Assembly: GCA_021817455.1 (NCBI GenBank) | Contig: JAKAUW010000013.1 | Span: forward strand, 62,001 to 126,000 | Reading direction: 5' to 3' | DNA length: 64,000 nucleotides | Source: Thermoplasmata archaeon | Lineage (GTDB): Archaea; Thermoplasmatota; Thermoplasmata; Thermoplasmatales; Thermoplasmataceae | In this document: positions 27,291 through 36,463 of the stretch, in pieces | Position numbering within the stretch: position 1 is the stretch's first letter | How the letters are laid out: each line of letters starts with the position of its first letter | Made by a program: the position numbers and the translations under genes | The notes under the pieces: generated by a model | What the model saw: the letters and a program-made list of their open reading frames with translations, nothing else | Databases searched by the model: none | What the model was told of the DNA's origin: nothing

Positions 27291-30200
27291 ATGGAATTAC
27301 AGCTTGAGCCTAAATTCAACGGACTATCTAGGATATACAACTACTCAGAAGTCATAATCGTAGGCATATTGGTTGCAGTGTACCTTTTCCTTTCGAATTA
27401 TTTCTACTGGGCTGCCACATTCGTATACGGCGGGGGGATAGCTGCTCTTCCTACATCTGGAGGAAGCGACCCTTACTACAACTTTGTTGCAATACTGCAC
27501 ATATTGAATCAACACACGCAGTTGGTTTATGATCCAACCTTAAATTACCCACTTGGTACCATCAACCCAAGGAATCCGTTCTTCCACTGGTTCATAGCAC
27601 TGGTGGCTGAAATACTGTCACCAATCTATGGTGCACAGAATGCGGCTTTCTATGCTTTTGAAGAGTTCAACGCAGTCTTCGGCGCCCTTCTCATAATTCC
27701 AGTATATCTAATCACAAAGGAAATCTTTGGTAAGAATGCAGCTGGAATAGGCGCCCTGCTTTACACCCTCATGCCGAGTAACCTTTCTGCAGGTATCCTT
27801 TCTGGAGGAAGGATGCACACTCCCGAACTTATATTCGCATTCTTCGCAGTCTATTTCTTCCTCAAGGCGATCAAGCTTTCAGAAAAAACAAGGATCATTG
27901 AAAACCTCAGGGATTTCAAGTCTTACCATATCAAAGTTTATCAGTTCTTCAACAAAAACAGGGTTGCAACTATATATGGCCTTTTGGCTGGCGCCTCGCT
28001 GGGCGGTCTGATGCTCTCTTGGCAGGGATATGCTTACATAGAGGCAATCCTCCTCATATATGTTGCAGTGCAGCTAATTGTAAACCTTATTCTCAAGCGG
28101 CCCACCGGATACATCACTTATTACACTGCCCTGTTTGTCCTTCTGGGCTTTGCAATGGGCTTCTACTATTACTTAGGCGTGAACGAACTAAACGGATGGT
28201 ACAATGCTGAGCTCGAGCTCGGTCTTGTCATGATCCTTTTCGGTGCCCTCATTGGTCTAGTGGGAAGAAGGCCATGGGTACTCATCATACCTGTTCTTAT
28301 CATTGCCGTGATTGCTGGACTTGAGGGCATGGCCCATCTTAGTCCTGCCCTTTTCAACAGGCTCATCAGCGGTGACGGTTATTTCATCAAGACAAGAGTA
28401 TATACCACAATCGCTGAAGCAGCAGCCCCACAGCTCGGTTCTTACATTGGGGGATTTGGCATAGCCCAATTCCTGTTGGGAATGGTAGGAATCGGTTACG
28501 GCGCATACCTTTTCCTCAAGGAGAAGACCGACCAGTTGCTTCTCATTCTGGTATTCTCAGTAGTATCCATCTACATGAGCTTTGCAGCTGCGCGTTTCAA
28601 CATTACGGCCGCCCCGGCTTACGCCATTCTTGGTGCTGGAGTCCTATTGCTCTTCGCAAGAATCTCCAGGCTTGAAGATGTAAAGAAGAAGAAACCATTT
28701 GCTTCATCTTCCCCATTAAGGGCTGTTAAGGGAAATATTAAATGGCTTCAGGCTGTATTTGTAATCTTCGTAACGGTTCTCGTTGTATTGCCATCTGCCA
28801 CATCAATGGTTTCGGCCTCGGTACCAGCAGGCAGTTCAGCACAGGCACAGATCGAGAGCCAGATAGCAAACTCGCTTCCAGGCTTCCTCAAGACAAATAA
28901 CACTACAAACTTTGTCGGAGGCCTTAGTGGCGGAATTTCAAACGGTTCTACCCCATTGAGCAAGTCACTCGCATGGCTTAGCACACAGGATTCCAACCTT
29001 CCAATTCAGGATAAGCCTGCTTACGTTTCGTGGTGGGACTACGGTTTCCAGGAAAGGTATCAGGGCCAGCACCCCACTGTTGCAGACGATTTCCAGCAGG
29101 CAGTTGAAATGGCAGGGCAGACTCTGCTTGCACAGAATGAGTCCCAAATCATCAGTTTGTTCATAAGCAGGCTAATACAGGCCAATTTCACAAATGGCGA
29201 TTTCAATGCTCCCGTTAAGGCGAGCCTCATTCAGTATCTGGGTTATGGCGAATACCTGAATTTGACTAAGGTCTCGTCAAACCCATCATCTTTCACCAGT
29301 GTAGTGCTCGCAAACCCTTCAATATATGGCCAGTACATTAAGGAAGTAAGCGGGGCTAATGTATACTTTGCGTATGTCAAAGGACAACTTGCAAGCAAAT
29401 ATTCCATTTCTACATTAGTGAATCTTTACCAGGCCATAATGGGCGACACCGGTTACAGTATCAAATATATCCAGGTTCCAACAGATTCGAGCCTTGCATC
29501 GCTATTGCCCGTATCCGCCCAGAACACTGGAATATTCTACGCACCTGCCTATCTTACAGATTCACCCTCATACAGTTCAGCGGGTGGAGGCATTATCCCC
29601 ACAGAATACTACAACATTTACGCCAACACAAACAATGGGACATTCTCGCTTCAGAATCTCCCCCAGGGGTATATCCCAACTGCCTACAACATACAGTTTA
29701 CTTCTGAGTTTTACAACACTTCAATCTACAGATTTACAATCGGGCTTCCGCCAAACGTGCTCGGACAGACAAATGGAATACCTGGCATCTCTTTCGGGGC
29801 TTCTCAGTATTCTGTGAAACCTGCCTGGAACATGAGCAACTTCATGGTCATTTATGAAAATGTTCCATACAACCCATACACCGATTACTCAGCCCATCCC
29901 TCTGCGTGGACCACTGTACCGCTTTCACAGGCTTACTATTACCAGCAGCATGGAATGGGTACGGTTGACCTGACACCCCCAGTTTCGACTTCCCTTTCCA
30001 TTTCAGATCCCATAATAGCCTACTATCCAGGTGCTATCATTCACGGAAGAGTAACAATGCCAGATGGTCAGCCGGTTCCAGGAGTTCATGTAACATTATT
30101 TGACCAGTACGGAGTGCCTCATGGAGTTGTGGACACAAACAGCCGGGGATACTACAATGTTTCAGGCCTCCCAGGCAACGATACCCTATTCTTCTCATTC

Positions 30201-33200
30201 GGGTCTACAAATAATCAGTTCCTCATAGGAACCACAACACTTGGCACAAAGAATGTGTACGTTTCGATGAACCAGGCGAACAGGATACCCACATCATATA
30301 ACCAGTCTACCTGGCTTCCCGATTATTACATTCAGAAGAACCTGCAACTTTCGAACACAACTGCTTCAGGAAACGCTGCATTCCAGTACCAGCAGGCATA
30401 TCCAGGAAAGGGTACGACACAGACACAGCCACTAACCTCTGAAATAAGGGATGGTACAGTTACATTCAGCAACAGCCGGTACAACTTGTCTTACTCAGCA
30501 CCAATTATTGACGGCAACTATTCTATGTCAGAATTGCCTCCTATATCCTACAATGTTTCCATAACAACCGGTGGACATACATTTACAAATATTCAGGTTG
30601 CAAACATCAGCAATGGTGGCAGCGTGGTTTATAACCTCAAGGTTCCATTTGACGTAATTTTTGCAAACCTTACTGTTGCAGGCAAAGCCATCAGTGGGGT
30701 AGGAGTTTCTGCAACCAGCACTAACGGGTATGTGGCAAGTTCCACAGTTACAAACGGGAATGGCACCGCAATAATTTGGGTCACTCCCGGGAGCTACCAA
30801 GTCTCTGCTTCTGGGGCCGGTATAGGCTCCTTCAGCCAGCAGGCATCCTTTTCAAAATGGGGTAGTAATATTACACTGCAACTGAATCCGGAACTTTCTG
30901 CTAAGGTATCCATCGACGTATCCGGTTCACCTGCAGGAACCGGCGTGAAGCTTTTCACCAATGGATTGATTTCAGATGCAATTCCTTTGAGTTCTGTCAA
31001 TGGGGTCTTCACAGGTTCAATTCCATACGGTGTGTACACCATTTATGCAACCGATGGCCAAATGTCTTACATGAAAACTGTTGTCCTGAATGGAACATAT
31101 AAATCTACCATATCGCTTGTGCCTTCTTCTAACATTACAATCACTTCCAACCTTCCTGGTGCTTCAAGATATTCTGGCTCTTATGAAATCCTTAACGATT
31201 CAGCAATGATCTCATACGACTTCGCATCTATCCACAAGCTAAGCATTGAAATCCCTGAGGGAGTTTACTCAATTGCAGGTATCGGGGTCTACACTGGTGG
31301 GACATCATCTGCATATGACCGTGTCAACCTGTTTGGAAACCAGAGCCTTAACCTTAGCCTGACCTCAAATTACACAGTATCTGCACTGCTTTACAACCAG
31401 AACAGTGCCACCAGCTATAACTCCAATAGCGCAATTTCTTCCGGCATCGTAGTCCTCAAGTACGGTGGAATCCCAGTCTATTACAATCCAGTTGGTACTT
31501 CCGGAATAGCGAGTCTGTATTACCAGTCCGGATCTAGCAGTGGCCTCACTGTTACCTTTGCAGGGGCATATTACACCGGTTCAACTGTTAATGTAAAAGG
31601 CCAGCAAGTCACAGTTCCAGTTATACCGGTTGAGAAGAGCATTAAGGTTTCACTTAATTCTACACCTTTGTTCACTTCATTGCAGACACTAACTCTTGCT
31701 TCCTCGTCTGGAACATATAACTTTACGCTGCTTCACGGAACAGGTTCAGTGAAAGTTCCCATAGGCGTTTACCGTGCAACGGTAAACCAGTCTGGCATAG
31801 AGTCCGCTATTTATCCGGGATATGCTTCAATAGATATGGGAACCCCTTCATTTATGTCGTTGAATCTGGTACAGTTCGTCAATGTTAGTGTTAAGAATGC
31901 AAATTTGGCCCAACTGTACTATTCAAATGGGACTGCTGTGAATGGACTGAGAAATGTCCAGACAGGGCAGTACATTCTTTATGCCTACAACAACTCACTT
32001 GGGCTGGTCAACATGAGCAAGGTATACATAACTTCAACTACAACTATCTCTCCGACATATGTCTCTGCTTATGGGCTGAACCTGACCAACAGCTACGGAC
32101 TCAATTCAGGCACCTATAGTATTACATCAGGCGCTGGGACTATAAACACTTCAAAAGGAAACATAATGCTGCCTCAGGGCACCTATTCCGTGAGCTATAT
32201 TGAAAAACAGTCAAGCAACACCGGATCATTCATCTATTCAGGCTCTGGGAGCGTATCTTTGAATTCTAACCAGGCATTGAGCGTGCAGGTTTCAAAGAAT
32301 GAAGTTTTTGCCAAAGTTTCTGGTACTGTTACCTATGGAAACATGCCTTACCAGAACACTTACATTGAATATGTAAATTCCAATGGCAATATTGTTGCAT
32401 CTGGTCTCACCAACACCAGCGGTGGTTACACCATCAACTCACCTACAGGGTATTATACCGTTTATGCGGTGAACAATGGAACTAGGCTGGCTTATCTCGG
32501 CGTTATCAGCATTCCTGCTTATGCCACTTCATACGGGCAGAATTTAACACTGACCCAAGCCTATTCAGTTTCATTCAGCGTCAACATGGCATCCCAGACA
32601 ATCAACAACCCGGTGAATATAACCTCTGGAAACTCACTTCTGATTGTTTTGCCAGACTCTGGCTCTCTGCTTCTTCCGAAGGGCGGATATGGATTCACAT
32701 CCACGGTTACCTCGACTGAGCAGTCTGCTGTTGGAAATTACCTGTCTATTTCCTACTCCAGCTCTGTGAATTTGCAGCTTTCTTCAAACCAGGTTGTGCC
32801 ACTTACACTTTCAAAGATTGTGGTGCACTCTTTCCAGGTAAAATTACTGTCCAGTGTTGCAACCATTAACAGAGGGGGCAACCTCACCTACCAGTTCATA
32901 CTTTACAACAACGGAAACAGCAATGAAACAGTTTCTCTGGCCTCAGGAAGTAACAGGTGGCACGAGGCCTTTGTGGGCAATTCAACTATCCTTGTTGGGG
33001 GAAACGCCACTTATACAATGAATGCAACACTGGTCGGAAACCAGCAATACGGGGCAGGTTCTATTCCTTTCTACGTGAACTATACTGGTGGTTCCTCTGA
33101 ACTTTCACTGCCTGTAAAGATTGCCAAGAGCATCAATTACACTCTGAAACCCGGAATTAGCCCGGTCTATTTAGGCAACAGCGCGCTCCTCCCAATCATC

Positions 33201-33617
33201 CTGAACAATACGGGAAACGGTGAGGTCACGGTGAACTTAACGTTCAATGAAACAGTGCTTAGCCAGAATGGCTGGTCAGGATTCTTCAACGGAACCCACT
33301 CTACAAACCTTACTGTGGTTCTGCAATATAATACCGTAAAGACCGTGTACGTGACTCTGACTCCAAAAGTGCCCAATCCTCCATACCCAGTCAGCTTCAA
33401 TGTTAATGCAACTTCAACTGGGTTGCCTGGAAAAGCCGTCTACCTTACACTCGAGTCTTCACCATCTGCAAGTGTCACCCCGTACCCCACAGGTCCCCTG
33501 GTTACCTCTAACTATACAGGAACCCCAACCGAAAACCTGATTGTAGGCATTGTGATAATTGTGGTCGCCGTTGTTGCAGGCCTCGGTGTTTCAGCATACA
33601 GGGGGAGAAGAAATTGA
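27291..33617 (+). CDS. aglB: Giant oligosaccharyltransferase AglB (STT3 family) with surface extension
   Basis: Transfers a lipid-linked glycan to Asn in N-x-S/T sequons outside the cytoplasmic membrane. It has 2,108 residues; archaeal AglB proteins are usually under about 1,000. Residues 20-500 contain about a dozen hydrophobic segments with the catalytic SDPYY (Asp60) and GRMHTPELIF. The signature WWDYG is at 581-585. From about 920 a carboxypeptidase-regulatory-like module begins (GRVTMPDGQPVPG), followed by further Gly-Tyr-rich beta repeats, a NEW3/CARDB-like module (about 1,840-2,060) and a final membrane helix at about 2,080-2,101 with a basic end (YRGRRN). The extension holds roughly forty sequons by eye. 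No frameshift or internal stop is present. Its TTGA overlap couples it to the next gene. Confidence 0.93.
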   Translation: MELQLEPKFNGLSRIYNYSEVIIVGILVAVYLFLSNYFYWAATFVYGGGIAALPTSGGSDPYYNFVAILHILNQHTQLVYDPTLNYPLGTINPRNPFFHWFIALVAEILSPIYGAQNAAFYAFEEFNAVFGALLIIPVYLITKEIFGKNAAGIGALLYTLMPSNLSAGILSGGRMHTPELIFAFFAVYFFLKAIKLSEKTRIIENLRDFKSYHIKVYQFFNKNRVATIYGLLAGASLGGLMLSWQGYAYIEAILLIYVAVQLIVNLILKRPTGYITYYTALFVLLGFAMGFYYYLGVNELNGWYNAELELGLVMILFGALIGLVGRRPWVLIIPVLIIAVIAGLEGMAHLSPALFNRLISGDGYFIKTRVYTTIAEAAAPQLGSYIGGFGIAQFLLGMVGIGYGAYLFLKEKTDQLLLILVFSVVSIYMSFAAARFNITAAPAYAILGAGVLLLFARISRLEDVKKKKPFASSSPLRAVKGNIKWLQAVFVIFVTVLVVLPSATSMVSASVPAGSSAQAQIESQIANSLPGFLKTNNTTNFVGGLSGGISNGSTPLSKSLAWLSTQDSNLPIQDKPAYVSWWDYGFQERYQGQHPTVADDFQQAVEMAGQTLLAQNESQIISLFISRLIQANFTNGDFNAPVKASLIQYLGYGEYLNLTKVSSNPSSFTSVVLANPSIYGQYIKEVSGANVYFAYVKGQLASKYSISTLVNLYQAIMGDTGYSIKYIQVPTDSSLASLLPVSAQNTGIFYAPAYLTDSPSYSSAGGGIIPTEYYNIYANTNNGTFSLQNLPQGYIPTAYNIQFTSEFYNTSIYRFTIGLPPNVLGQTNGIPGISFGASQYSVKPAWNMSNFMVIYENVPYNPYTDYSAHPSAWTTVPLSQAYYYQQHGMGTVDLTPPVSTSLSISDPIIAYYPGAIIHGRVTMPDGQPVPGVHVTLFDQYGVPHGVVDTNSRGYYNVSGLPGNDTLFFSFGSTNNQFLIGTTTLGTKNVYVSMNQANRIPTSYNQSTWLPDYYIQKNLQLSNTTASGNAAFQYQQAYPGKGTTQTQPLTSEIRDGTVTFSNSRYNLSYSAPIIDGNYSMSELPPISYNVSITTGGHTFTNIQVANISNGGSVVYNLKVPFDVIFANLTVAGKAISGVGVSATSTNGYVASSTVTNGNGTAIIWVTPGSYQVSASGAGIGSFSQQASFSKWGSNITLQLNPELSAKVSIDVSGSPAGTGVKLFTNGLISDAIPLSSVNGVFTGSIPYGVYTIYATDGQMSYMKTVVLNGTYKSTISLVPSSNITITSNLPGASRYSGSYEILNDSAMISYDFASIHKLSIEIPEGVYSIAGIGVYTGGTSSAYDRVNLFGNQSLNLSLTSNYTVSALLYNQNSATSYNSNSAISSGIVVLKYGGIPVYYNPVGTSGIASLYYQSGSSSGLTVTFAGAYYTGSTVNVKGQQVTVPVIPVEKSIKVSLNSTPLFTSLQTLTLASSSGTYNFTLLHGTGSVKVPIGVYRATVNQSGIESAIYPGYASIDMGTPSFMSLNLVQFVNVSVKNANLAQLYYSNGTAVNGLRNVQTGQYILYAYNNSLGLVNMSKVYITSTTTISPTYVSAYGLNLTNSYGLNSGTYSITSGAGTINTSKGNIMLPQGTYSVSYIEKQSSNTGSFIYSGSGSVSLNSNQALSVQVSKNEVFAKVSGTVTYGNMPYQNTYIEYVNSNGNIVASGLTNTSGGYTINSPTGYYTVYAVNNGTRLAYLGVISIPAYATSYGQNLTLTQAYSVSFSVNMASQTINNPVNITSGNSLLIVLPDSGSLLLPKGGYGFTSTVTSTEQSAVGNYLSISYSSSVNLQLSSNQVVPLTLSKIVVHSFQVKLLSSVATINRGGNLTYQFILYNNGNSNETVSLASGSNRWHEAFVGNSTILVGGNATYTMNATLVGNQQYGAGSIPFYVNYTGGSSELSLPVKIAKSINYTLKPGISPVYLGNSALLPIILNNTGNGEVTVNLTFNETVLSQNGWSGFFNGTHSTNLTVVLQYNTVKTVYVTLTPKVPNPPYPVSFNVNATSTGLPGKAVYLTLESSPSASVTPYPTGPLVTSNYTGTPTENLIVGIVIIVVAVVAGLGVSAYRGRRN

Positions 33618-34417
33618 GTAAGCCGTTTCTAATTGGAGTATTCGCATTACTTCTCCTTTCTTCTTTTGCAGCAATGGGTACAGCTTCAGCTTACAGTTAT
33701 GTGCAGCCATTTGGACAGTCCATTTCAACAACCGGATACAGTTTTGTTGGTGAGAATTTCACCATTTACGTGAACGATACAAATGGATTTGCAAATTATA
33801 CCATGACTGCCTATATCGCAGGAAACAACCTGAGTGGGTTTTCACCGACATCCTCAATACACAATTTCCAGGCGAGCAACCCGGATTTCAAATTCAGCGT
33901 TACTAGCCCGTTAACTTCTCAGACACTTTACATTACTATAATTTCAGCAGCACAGTATGGCTCAACATCAGTGAAAACATCAAAGACAATCCAGGTTACT
34001 GTGGTAGATCCCATAGTATTCCATGCAGTGGTACAGAACACGGGAGTATCTACTGTAAAGAACCTCACCGTGGACTTTTACCTGGACAATTCTGCGAGCC
34101 CGATTGGAAACGTTACGGTAAAGTCTATTGCACCCAATCAAGCGGTAAACGTGAATTTTACCTATCCGCTTGATCCTGCGAAATACCTCGGAAATGGAGA
34201 ACACACTCTAAGGGTTTCCACTGGAAACCAGCTGATCAGCATAAATGGGAACATAGGCTCATCCACAACGACCTTTTATTATGGCACACCACCAAATTAC
34301 AACTGGATATTCTATGTGGCCGCAATTGTTGTGGTATTCATGGTCTTCATGGCCTTTTCTTCCGGAAGAAAAACTACGCCAGGAATGAGGGCGCCAAAGT
34401 GGAGAAAGCAGAAATAA
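33614..34417 (+). CDS. Secreted CARDB-like membrane-anchored protein coupled to AglB
   Basis: A 267-residue surface protein. It has a signal peptide (about 1-26, ending ASA), two extracellular beta domains (about 30-120 and 125-215; the second looks like a CARDB/NEW3 adhesion-type module: VVQNTGVSTVKNLTVDFYLDN broken after NLT), and a C-terminal helix at about 233-252 with a basic cytoplasmic tail. The TTG start overlaps the aglB stop (TTGA), so the two are co-translated. It carries several sequons. A role as an accessory or scaffold of the large AglB is inference. Confidence 0.8.
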   Translation: MSKPFLIGVFALLLLSSFAAMGTASAYSYVQPFGQSISTTGYSFVGENFTIYVNDTNGFANYTMTAYIAGNNLSGFSPTSSIHNFQASNPDFKFSVTSPLTSQTLYITIISAAQYGSTSVKTSKTIQVTVVDPIVFHAVVQNTGVSTVKNLTVDFYLDNSASPIGNVTVKSIAPNQAVNVNFTYPLDPAKYLGNGEHTLRVSTGNQLISINGNIGSSTTTFYYGTPPNYNWIFYVAAIVVVFMVFMAFSSGRKTTPGMRAPKWRKQK

Positions 34418-34425
34418 ATTTTTGC

Positions 34426-35079
34426 TTATCCAATTATACTTTTTAACGTTACAAATTCCTTTTCGTAAGCTTCCTTTCTCTTAATATTTTGCGCCTGCAG
34501 CTCAGGGGCAATGGTGTAATGGTGTTCCACTTGGGCTATCCTGGCAGCTGAAAGTGCGTTGTTGTGAATCTTGTGGGGGAAACTTGTATTCTGTTCATCC
34601 ACGACTTTAATCGGCAGTTCCATTTCTCTGAGGGTATTGAGAATGTGATCACGGTTAGGGGCATCACCGTTGCCCAGTTTTACCTGGAGATCAGCGTAGG
34701 TATATGAGCCAACAATAGCAGCCACCTCCTGGCCTACCTGCTGGATGGAAGGGCATTCAAAAGCCTCCATCAGGACATTGTCTCCAAATACGGCGACTCC
34801 CGGATATGGACCCGGATCTATCCCAATGACAACAGCCTCGAACTTCTCCTTCAGGAGGAGTTTTGCAAGTGACATCCTGAGCCCCCGAAGAGGAGTATCG
34901 GATTTCACCTGATTTACTATTGAGAAATTATCCCTGGCTGAACTTAGGACTACAGTTACATCATCAGGCACGGAGTCTGTGGAATCAATGCTCAGGAAGG
35001 GAAGGTTCCACTCTTTGAGCAGCTGAATCACGTCCCGATAAAATTTGAAATCAGATGTGAAGACCCCTATACGAGCCAT
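34426..35079 (-). CDS. RNase H-fold (RuvC/YqgF-like) predicted nuclease, COG2433-like short form
   Basis: A 217-residue protein whose central part (about 85-200) has RuvC-like features: the first acidic strand VVIGIDPGPYPGVAVF, LQVKLGNGDAPNRDHIL and the late VDEQNTSF plus HNNALSAARIA. The acidic residues of a two-metal nuclease are therefore broadly kept, though the last one is not assured. The N-terminal 80 residues are not recognised. A TATA-like box at 35101-35109 precedes ATG 35079 by about 26 bases, so this start is preferred over longer forms reaching to 35175 that overlap the DHH gene. The function in DNA or RNA repair is unknown. Confidence 0.7.
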   Translation of the reverse strand: MARIGVFTSDFKFYRDVIQLLKEWNLPFLSIDSTDSVPDDVTVVLSSARDNFSIVNQVKSDTPLRGLRMSLAKLLLKEKFEAVVIGIDPGPYPGVAVFGDNVLMEAFECPSIQQVGQEVAAIVGSYTYADLQVKLGNGDAPNRDHILNTLREMELPIKVVDEQNTSFPHKIHNNALSAARIAQVEHHYTIAPELQAQNIKRKEAYEKEFVTLKSIIG

Positions 35080-35100
35080 TCGAATCATAATTCGCAATAG

Positions 35101-35109
35101 ATTTAAAGC
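35101..35109 (-). promoter_or_regulatory. TATA-like box for the RNase H-fold gene
   Basis: Minus-strand GCTTTAAAT about 26 bases before ATG 35079. It sits just before the end of the upstream DHH gene and fixes the start. Confidence 0.45.
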
Positions 35110-35119
35110 TTTTCCCAGT

Positions 35120-36463
35120 TTATAGAGTGGTCTTTCCCAGTTGCTCTCCGATGAGCCTGTTTGCGGTTTCAACAAACTGCTTTTCTTTCCCTCTGGGTAT
35201 TACGGCACCTGCAGCAATGTCATGCCCGCCACCGGATCCACCAACTTCTTTTGCGCTTTCCCTCATAACAAGGGACAGGTTTAGCCCTTTCTGAACCTGG
35301 CGTCTGGATCCGCGCCCTGAAACTTTTGTATCGTTATTCCCTACGTTGAATCCAATTAACGGCTTGTCCTGCTTCAGGAGGTACAGCATCATGATGCCGC
35401 TGATAGCCCCTGCCATTTCTGATTCCGGGGCATAGAAGTATCTCACATTTGGCTCCTCGTAGATCTCCTTGAAAGCTCTGTAAGTATATTCTATGAGTTT
35501 TGTCTTGAATATTCTCCAGTTGTTCACCATTTCTTCCCTCTGGCTCTTGTCTCCAAGGAAGAAAATGACTGGAACTGAATTCATTCCCACTTTTGCATTG
35601 CCATCCACCAGCGTACTGATTTCCTTTGAGGTAAATCCAAGCTGGTCAAACTTGATCATGTCATTTTCAAGGTACTTTATGGCTTCAGATCCGCTGTTCT
35701 GTTCAAGAAGCTTAAATGAGAGAAATTCAGCAAGTATTCGCTTCTCATCCTCAGTAATGTCAAATATGCTCTTATCAGGAGAAATACCGAGGTTTTCTAG
35801 CACTTTCCTGACATTGTCAGGTTTCCCGCTTAGGTCCATGAAGAAAGGATCTGTAGAATAAGTAATGCCATCTGTGAGGTTATGCCCTTCAAAATTCAGT
35901 GTGCGTATTGTTTTCAGGTCCTTGGCGTAATGTTCCATAATAACCTGGTTCAATCCCGTGTAACCACCGATATCTTGTTTGTCAGCTATTATGCCTGATA
36001 CGAGGAAGGGCAGCAGGTCTGAGTTTTTCTCATTCATGGCAAGTGCCATCACGAAAGCCATTGTTGCGCCGCATGCTCCCCTGGTCCCGTCTATCCCGAA
36101 TTGCCTAGCGTTGATGTTCAGGCCCTTGAAAGAATTCTCCTGGAAGAAGTGGTGATCAAGGATGCAGACATTATCATATTCTTCAATGAACTTCGCCTGA
36201 TCTGATCCAGCGTCCACTACTATGGTATAAATATCAGAAAACTCCTGGATCCTCTGCCTGAAGCTTTCGCCATCAAGGCTCTTGATAAATCCAAGATGAA
36301 ACTTAATTCCAACTCTCCTTAAGGCTGTGGTGAGAATAATGGCTGCGCTGCCCCCATCTCCGTCAAAATGGGCCAGGACCCTGACATATTGGTTTTTAAG
36401 GATGCGTTCTGCACCCTCTTTCAGTAATTTATAAAATTCTGGATCTATAATGTCCTTTAACAT
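35120..36463 (-). CDS. DHH-family phosphoesterase, archaeal RecJ-like (RecJ/GAN type)
   Basis: A 447-residue metal-dependent phosphoesterase that digests single-stranded nucleic acid. Motifs are AHFDGDGGSAA (Asp34/Asp36), an acidic VVDAG near 84, the namesake DHH (103-105, ILDHHF) and the C-terminal DHHA1 motif GGSGGGHDIAAG. Such proteins associate with GINS/MCM or act as RNA exonucleases in archaea. The ATG follows the uS15 stop by one base, an arrangement often seen in archaea. Which of the RecJ subfamilies it belongs to cannot be decided here. Confidence 0.9.
   Translation of the reverse strand: MLKDIIDPEFYKLLKEGAERILKNQYVRVLAHFDGDGGSAAIILTTALRRVGIKFHLGFIKSLDGESFRQRIQEFSDIYTIVVDAGSDQAKFIEEYDNVCILDHHFFQENSFKGLNINARQFGIDGTRGACGATMAFVMALAMNEKNSDLLPFLVSGIIADKQDIGGYTGLNQVIMEHYAKDLKTIRTLNFEGHNLTDGITYSTDPFFMDLSGKPDNVRKVLENLGISPDKSIFDITEDEKRILAEFLSFKLLEQNSGSEAIKYLENDMIKFDQLGFTSKEISTLVDGNAKVGMNSVPVIFFLGDKSQREEMVNNWRIFKTKLIEYTYRAFKEIYEEPNVRYFYAPESEMAGAISGIMMLYLLKQDKPLIGFNVGNNDTKVSGRGSRRQVQKGLNLSLVMRESAKEVGGSGGGHDIAAGAVIPRGKEKQFVETANRLIGEQLGKTTL

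Follow-up and report, generated by a model that had tools for sequence, protein, structure and literature searches.

The window, that is, the whole stretch of DNA analysed here, comprises 64,000 nucleotides of contig JAKAUW010000013.1 (assembly GCA_021817455.1) from a Thermoplasmata archaeon. On its forward strand it carries the gene for a giant AglB, an archaeal oligosaccharyltransferase (OST) whose core is prolonged by a long C-terminal extension, and directly downstream a smaller gene, here called the partner, whose start overlaps the AglB stop codon. The AglB gene begins with ATG and forms a single frame of 2108 aa with zero internal stops, as a preliminary description made from the letters alone had noted. 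The features of the locus are given below; motif counts refer, here and throughout, to 99 full-length AglB sequences of the class, 50 from the window's family (f1) and 49 others, and AfAglB denotes the enzyme of A. fulgidus.

27291..33617, plus strand: giant AglB open reading frame, 2108 aa, with full-length orthologues throughout order and class
27321..28820, plus strand: STT3 membrane domain with multiple transmembrane helices, about residues 11-510 (AlphaFold2 model mdae1ef00557d; Foldseek to AfAglB 7e9s)
27465..27479, plus strand: SDPYY, first acidic catalytic motif (D60), residues 59-63 (D60 in 99/99 sequences)
27810..27818, plus strand: R-M-H, residues 174-176, at the position of the second DxD (AfAglB D161-x-H163; alignment of families)
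28407..28418, plus strand: TIAE, the TIxE motif with E376 (T373 and E376 in 99/99)
28821..30002, plus strand: soluble core domain of AglB, about residues 511-904 (model mdae1ef00557d; alignment conservation)
29031..29045, plus strand: WWDYG, residues 581-585 (99/99)
30003..32855, plus strand: about 11 tandem beta-sandwich domains like transthyretin (TTR) and CarboxypepD_reg, residues 905 to about 1855 (AlphaFold2 model m7ff4265b01b7; profile self-comparison; Pfam)
32856..33470, plus strand: two NEW3-like beta domains, about residues 1856-2060 (mutual match; Pfam in relatives)
33525..33599, plus strand: C-terminal transmembrane helix, residues 2079-2103, with a short basic tail (model m7ff4265b01b7; transmembrane prediction)
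33614..34417, plus strand: partner gene, 267 aa, with signal peptide, beta domain, CARDB, transmembrane helix and basic tail (Pfam; transmembrane prediction; neighbourhood profile search)

Residues 1-904 constitute an AglB-type OST core, as established by Pfam, NCBIfam and the AlphaFold2 model. Pfam recognises STT3 at residues 59-449 (1.6e-7), and the SDPYY and WWDYG motifs named in the preliminary description are indeed present. NCBIfam matches the archaeosortase A system-associated family archaeo_STT3, TIGR04154 (3.9e-51), with a score of 174 bits that lies under the curated cut-off of 450 bits, so that membership of that family is not assigned. The core model (pLDDT 86.7) has the GT-C fold with multiple transmembrane helices expected of STT3, AglB and PglB; its top Foldseek matches in the PDB are the A. 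fulgidus AglB structures (7e9s, E 5e-25, TMt 0.68), followed by human and yeast STT3.

The extension (residues 905-2060) is modelled by AlphaFold2 as an all-beta array (pLDDT 88.2, pTM 0.55), and profile self-comparison together with Pfam resolves it into about 13 beta-sandwich domains in tandem, 11 TTR/CarboxypepD_reg-like and two NEW3-like. CarboxypepD_reg is matched in three stretches, the strongest at 917-970 (6.8e-19), whereas the NEW3-like pair is recognised by the match of 1870-1950 to 1950-2060 (E 1e-8), and NPCBM_assoc matches the extension in 6 of 38 relatives. A G-x-Y turn is seen in the consensus close to the end of each TTR-like domain, to which the Gly-Tyr repeats described earlier correspond, and the beta-rich extension and terminal membrane helix of that description are likewise borne out by Pfam and AlphaFold2. 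Foldseek searches of the extension against the PDB returned generic tandem Ig/beta strings only (TMq ~0.1) and were uninformative; Pfam and NCBIfam scans of AglB and its relatives gave zero matches to S-layer protein families, and an Rfam scan of the window gave none at all. Since the terminal helix brings the chain back to the membrane, the topology suggests that the extension would form a double-anchored arch rather than a free stalk.

Whole-genome searches gave matches in 73 of 77 genomes of the family and 107 of 117 of the order, and matches to the core in 375 of 400 of the class, mostly in frames exceeding 2000 aa. An AglB of about 2030-2430 aa is near-universal in class Thermoplasmata, the named carriers including Thermoplasma, Cuniculiplasma, I-plasma and DHVE2 archaea. 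The 99 aligned frames, all from independent genomes, measure 2033-2300 aa, and the class alignment is colinear, with few gaps across 1,200 extension columns. The core tree broadly tracks taxonomy, and the giant AglB has been inherited vertically across the class. Moreover, the extension is present in methanogens and other families of the class and is older than the acidophiles. Characterised archaeal OSTs have about 600-1000 aa. The three A. fulgidus AglBs, for example, have 868, 591 and 593 aa (PMC3703281), and the earlier statement that AglB proteins usually stay under 1000 residues is right for such enzymes and wrong for this class; the size is ordinary for the organism's class and not peculiar to the organism. 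Two things had been named that would take away from the singularity of the protein, relatives all of about 2000 residues and a known, annotated extension. The former was found and the latter was not: the openly accessible literature (subscription papers lay outside the search) yielded no description of a giant AglB or of AglB size in Thermoplasmata, nor any annotation of the extension.

Departures from the common size occur inside and outside the class. In the Acidiplasma group (L089-L091, L171, L173, L175) AglB has 1433-1454 aa, with about 650 array residues fewer, and the partner gene is kept. In E-plasma (L092/L169, G030) AglB is spread over two frames that overlap, one of 1233 and one of 916 aa, either a real split or a frameshift. 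A second, diverged copy occurs in two genomes (L093/L193 in G018, L094 in G113), with GYD at the DxD position of L193. In other classes of the phylum, AglB lengths fall at 926-1004, about 1200-1430, 2340-2620 and up to about 3300 aa; three such loci (L220-L222 in G482, G517 and G554) have frames of 3189-3245 aa, with the C-terminal transmembrane helix present and the partner not adjoining.

The partner adjoins AglB on the same strand in 36 of 36 representative loci of the class and 64 of 64 loci from named genomes (profile search; loci with enough downstream sequence are counted, and the two sets overlap). It was found in 108 of the 117 genomes of the order and in 50 of the 51 near-complete ones, essentially as a single copy with one locus per genome. 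Its cytosolic tail is rich in lysine and arginine (51%; median net charge +7), and its motif reads PKWKK within the order but RKPVKN(F/Y)GKPKxRR in the family f11 discussed below. Pfam assigns to it CARDB-type and other Ig-like domains only, and reveals no homology to eukaryotic OST accessory subunits (Ost1/Wbp1/Swp1 and others). Beside the AglB of other classes the profile found no partner at 14 loci (0/14), and no similar gene with signal peptide, transmembrane helix and basic tail stood out. The archaeal OST has been described as single-subunit (PMC5131992, PMC7226087), and earlier profile searches gave no promising archaeal or prokaryotic homologues of eukaryotic OST subunits (PMC4973528). 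On the strength of gene order and co-retention, the partner is proposed as a candidate accessory subunit of AglB. An origin as a duplicate of the C-terminal NEW3 domains of AglB is not claimed, the match being weak (probability 54-80%), and neither is a fusion of the partner into AglB in other classes, for which a single weak internal match was obtained (L224, 17 bits). Downstream of the partner lies a convergent gene (34426-35175, minus strand) whose position is conserved across the order and which has zero Pfam matches.

With regard to catalysis, the first acidic motif (D60, AfAglB D47), the TIxE motif (T373 and E376, AfAglB E360) and WWDYG are invariant in the whole set. In AfAglB, and similarly in PglB, the metal site is lined by an arginine and a DxD/DxH motif (R154, D161 and H163; PMC7226087). 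In family f1 this R..DxD arrangement is replaced in 50 of 50 sequences by S/A/T167-R174-H176, the histidine being kept and the upstream arginine lost, so that the second DxD/DxH motif with its arginine is absent from the window's AglB family. The canonical R-D-D occurs in 30 of the 49 class sequences outside f1 and is the usual state elsewhere. As for the DK/MI motif, no counterpart could be identified in the alignment, which for AfAglB stops near residue 631. Since N-glycans have been seen in the order (PMC12448462), the f1 enzyme with its remodelled metal site is presumably active. The window's protein can be described as descended from and like AglB; a canonical active site is not claimed because the second metal motif deviates, and only this secondary motif does.

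The catalytic motifs have been lost altogether in some methanogen relatives. The members of family f11 that were tested carry McrA and are therefore methanogens, by inference Methanomethylophilaceae. In 19 f11 genomes from 8 genera (L238, L239, L273-L289) the AglB, of 1829-2555 aa, lacks WWDYG, E376, R435 and DxD, and in 15 of the 19 also D60; genus g84 of the same family has intact motifs. A genome of another methanogen family (G254, L272) has lost the motifs in part, and independently of f11, since the core tree requires two changes. All twenty genomes retain the giant architecture with the partner next to AglB, and no second OST was found. Among the closest f11 pairs, the ratio of non-synonymous to synonymous substitution rates (dN/dS) is 0.10-0.22 in both core and extension. 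Loss of activity is predicted here from the motifs of diverged proteins, and the simplest reading is that the f11 AglB would be a pseudo-oligosaccharyltransferase retained for a non-catalytic role.

The extension ectodomain of the window's protein holds 43 N-x-S/T sequons, where shuffled sequences lead one to expect 25. With 39 occurrences of the reversed motif [ST]xN, however, the excess is weak in this sequence alone. Across relatives, sequons are selected over the reversed-motif control, and firmly so in family f1, which averages 57.7 sequons to 32.1 reversed motifs (excess in 50 of 50 sequences); the corresponding means are 45.5 and 20.5 for the other members of the order (16 of 16) and 27.5 and 13.6 for the remaining class members (29 of 33). 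Their positions turn over, with few conserved, and several class members have just 7-15 sequons on the same colinear array; glycosylation thus seems to be a layer added onto a conserved structure. In close pairs of the window's family, dN/dS is 0.02-0.06 for the core and 0.06-0.10 for the extension. The extension changes faster than the core in the class alignment, and these ratios point to strong purifying selection on it.

The reading preferred here, to which we give a probability of about 0.48, is that the giant AglB is bifunctional, a surface scaffold as well as an enzyme. The array would rise from the membrane as an arch; together with the partner it would contribute structurally to the exterior protein layer of archaea, and the two would keep the enzyme where surface proteins are exported. 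In acidophilic lineages the arch, being a surface protein, may itself receive N-glycans, either from its own core or from a neighbouring copy. Furthermore, arch and partner would serve a purpose independent of catalysis, since the methanogen relatives keep both after the loss of the active site. Most Thermoplasmatales have no S-layer, and S-layer-less members show an unordered exterior layer of about 20 nm by electron cryotomography (PMC12448462), with which a surface role of the extension is compatible. About 13 domains of an assumed 3.5-4 nm give a contour of about 45-52 nm and an arch roughly half as high; its closeness to the thickness of that layer is an argument of consistency, not a proof. 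Mild support comes from the secretome of P. torridus, among whose proteins the STT3 subunit was detected (PMC8345856).

Several points tell against this scaffold reading. The connection between AglB and the exterior layer is an inferred one, and the agreement in height depends on the assumed 4 nm or so per domain, while the interdomain geometry of the extension model is uncertain (pTM 0.55). The P. torridus secretome list also holds cytoplasmic proteins (PMC8345856). The full-length array is dispensable in the Acidiplasma group, because AglB is shortened there. The argument from lost catalysis concerns diverged relatives whose function may have changed, and in more distant f11 pairs (dN/dS 0.27-0.37 and, for the extension, 0.57-0.69) the extension is less constrained. 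Finally, the domain likeness points to a very widespread superfamily and to no specific function.

The strongest of the other explanations, though a less likely one, is a translocon-coupled glycosylation platform: by analogy with eukaryotic NOMO, TRAP and the OST accessory subunits at Sec61, array and partner would attach to SecY, to the ribosome or to secreted chains still being made, and would offer acceptors to the core. In its plan of signal peptide, Ig-like domains and transmembrane helix the partner is TRAP-like (compare PMC11186639), and NOMO2 is the best PDB match of the extension profile (7.4e-26), a model of the fifth transthyretin-like domain of NOMO matching 21 of 38 relatives. The NOMO matches fall, however, in several non-colinear registers, and a collagen adhesin is matched as well. 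The conserved basic tail of the partner, which would suit such a platform, equally fits the positive-inside rule, and pseudo-enzymes without catalysis need no presentation of acceptors for glycosylation. Still somewhat less likely is an extended form of the scaffold reading, according to which the OST of the whole class would be a two-protein surface machine with an ancestral structural role, serving as a pseudo-OST scaffold in some methanogens and, in S-layer-less members, as a principal component of the unordered exterior layer, which would take the place of an S-layer there. The two proteins would be the giant AglB and its CARDB/TM partner.

The preliminary description had proposed a glycosylated, wall-spanning stalk, perhaps in place of the S-layer or joined to it, on which the enzyme could act itself. 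The number of sequons, their selection in relatives and the missing S-layer of most Thermoplasmatales agree with it, but it is improbable: the distal end is anchored by the terminal helix, so that an arch fits better, the extension occurs class-wide whatever the sequon number, and few sequon positions are conserved. Replacement of the S-layer fails as the origin of the extension, which predates the acidophiles, and self-glycosylation, although consistent with selected sequons, is not the main reason for it, as members with few sequons keep the array. More doubtful still is a neutral or weakly constrained repeat spacer with no function of its own; the faster evolution of the extension and its shortening in Acidiplasma are set against its low dN/dS in the window's family, the domain order and number conserved in the class, and the retention of partner and terminal helix. 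The idea that assembly or annotation joined AglB artificially to a surface protein, in favour of which stands the origin of the window in a 96-contig assembly, can be dismissed, because the same frame recurs in about 100 independent genomes, some of them single-contig (G008, G034, G057, G064), and neither chance nor misassembly accounts for the 99 full-length frames.

The giant AglB belongs to a known enzyme family; its partner gene is newly recognised, and predicted pseudo-enzyme relatives occur naturally. A class-wide giant OST with a constant partner gene contrasts with the single-subunit archaeal OST of the literature and makes the partner a candidate for an archaeal OST accessory subunit. 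The natural losses of the active site, with giant protein and partner retained, separate a structural from a catalytic role and make a second function of AglB testable; the change from R..DxD to S..RxH is a natural rearrangement of the metal site in a universal enzyme; and the giant AglB becomes a concrete candidate component for the surface layer of S-layer-less archaea.

Among known systems, the eukaryotic OST accessory subunits and TRAP alpha/beta are small proteins with one transmembrane helix and beta-sandwich ectodomains beside STT3/Sec61, which the partner resembles in architecture only. NOMO, of the BOS complex in the multipass translocon of the endoplasmic reticulum, has, like the AglB extension, tandem TTR/prealbumin-like domains outside the membrane and a C-terminal transmembrane helix, but no OST fusion. 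Orthology with NOMO was rejected, as colinear homology over the 12-domain array is lacking; because of the shifting registers and the adhesin matches, the likeness is a superfamily resemblance only. Cuniculiplasma and Oxyplasma, organisms of the window's order, carry the roughly 20 nm exterior layer mentioned above, which is unordered and likely glycoprotein, its component proteins being left unidentified in that study (PMC12448462). AglB-L of A. fulgidus (PDB 3waj/5gmy/7e9s; TIGR04154), representing the archaeal AglB, differs in its length of 868 aa against 2108, in having neither array nor terminal transmembrane helix, and in its second DxD where the window's family has S/A/T..RxH, but shares with the giant AglB the GT-C core with multiple transmembrane helices (TMt 0.68), the aspartate corresponding to D60, TIxE and WWDYG.

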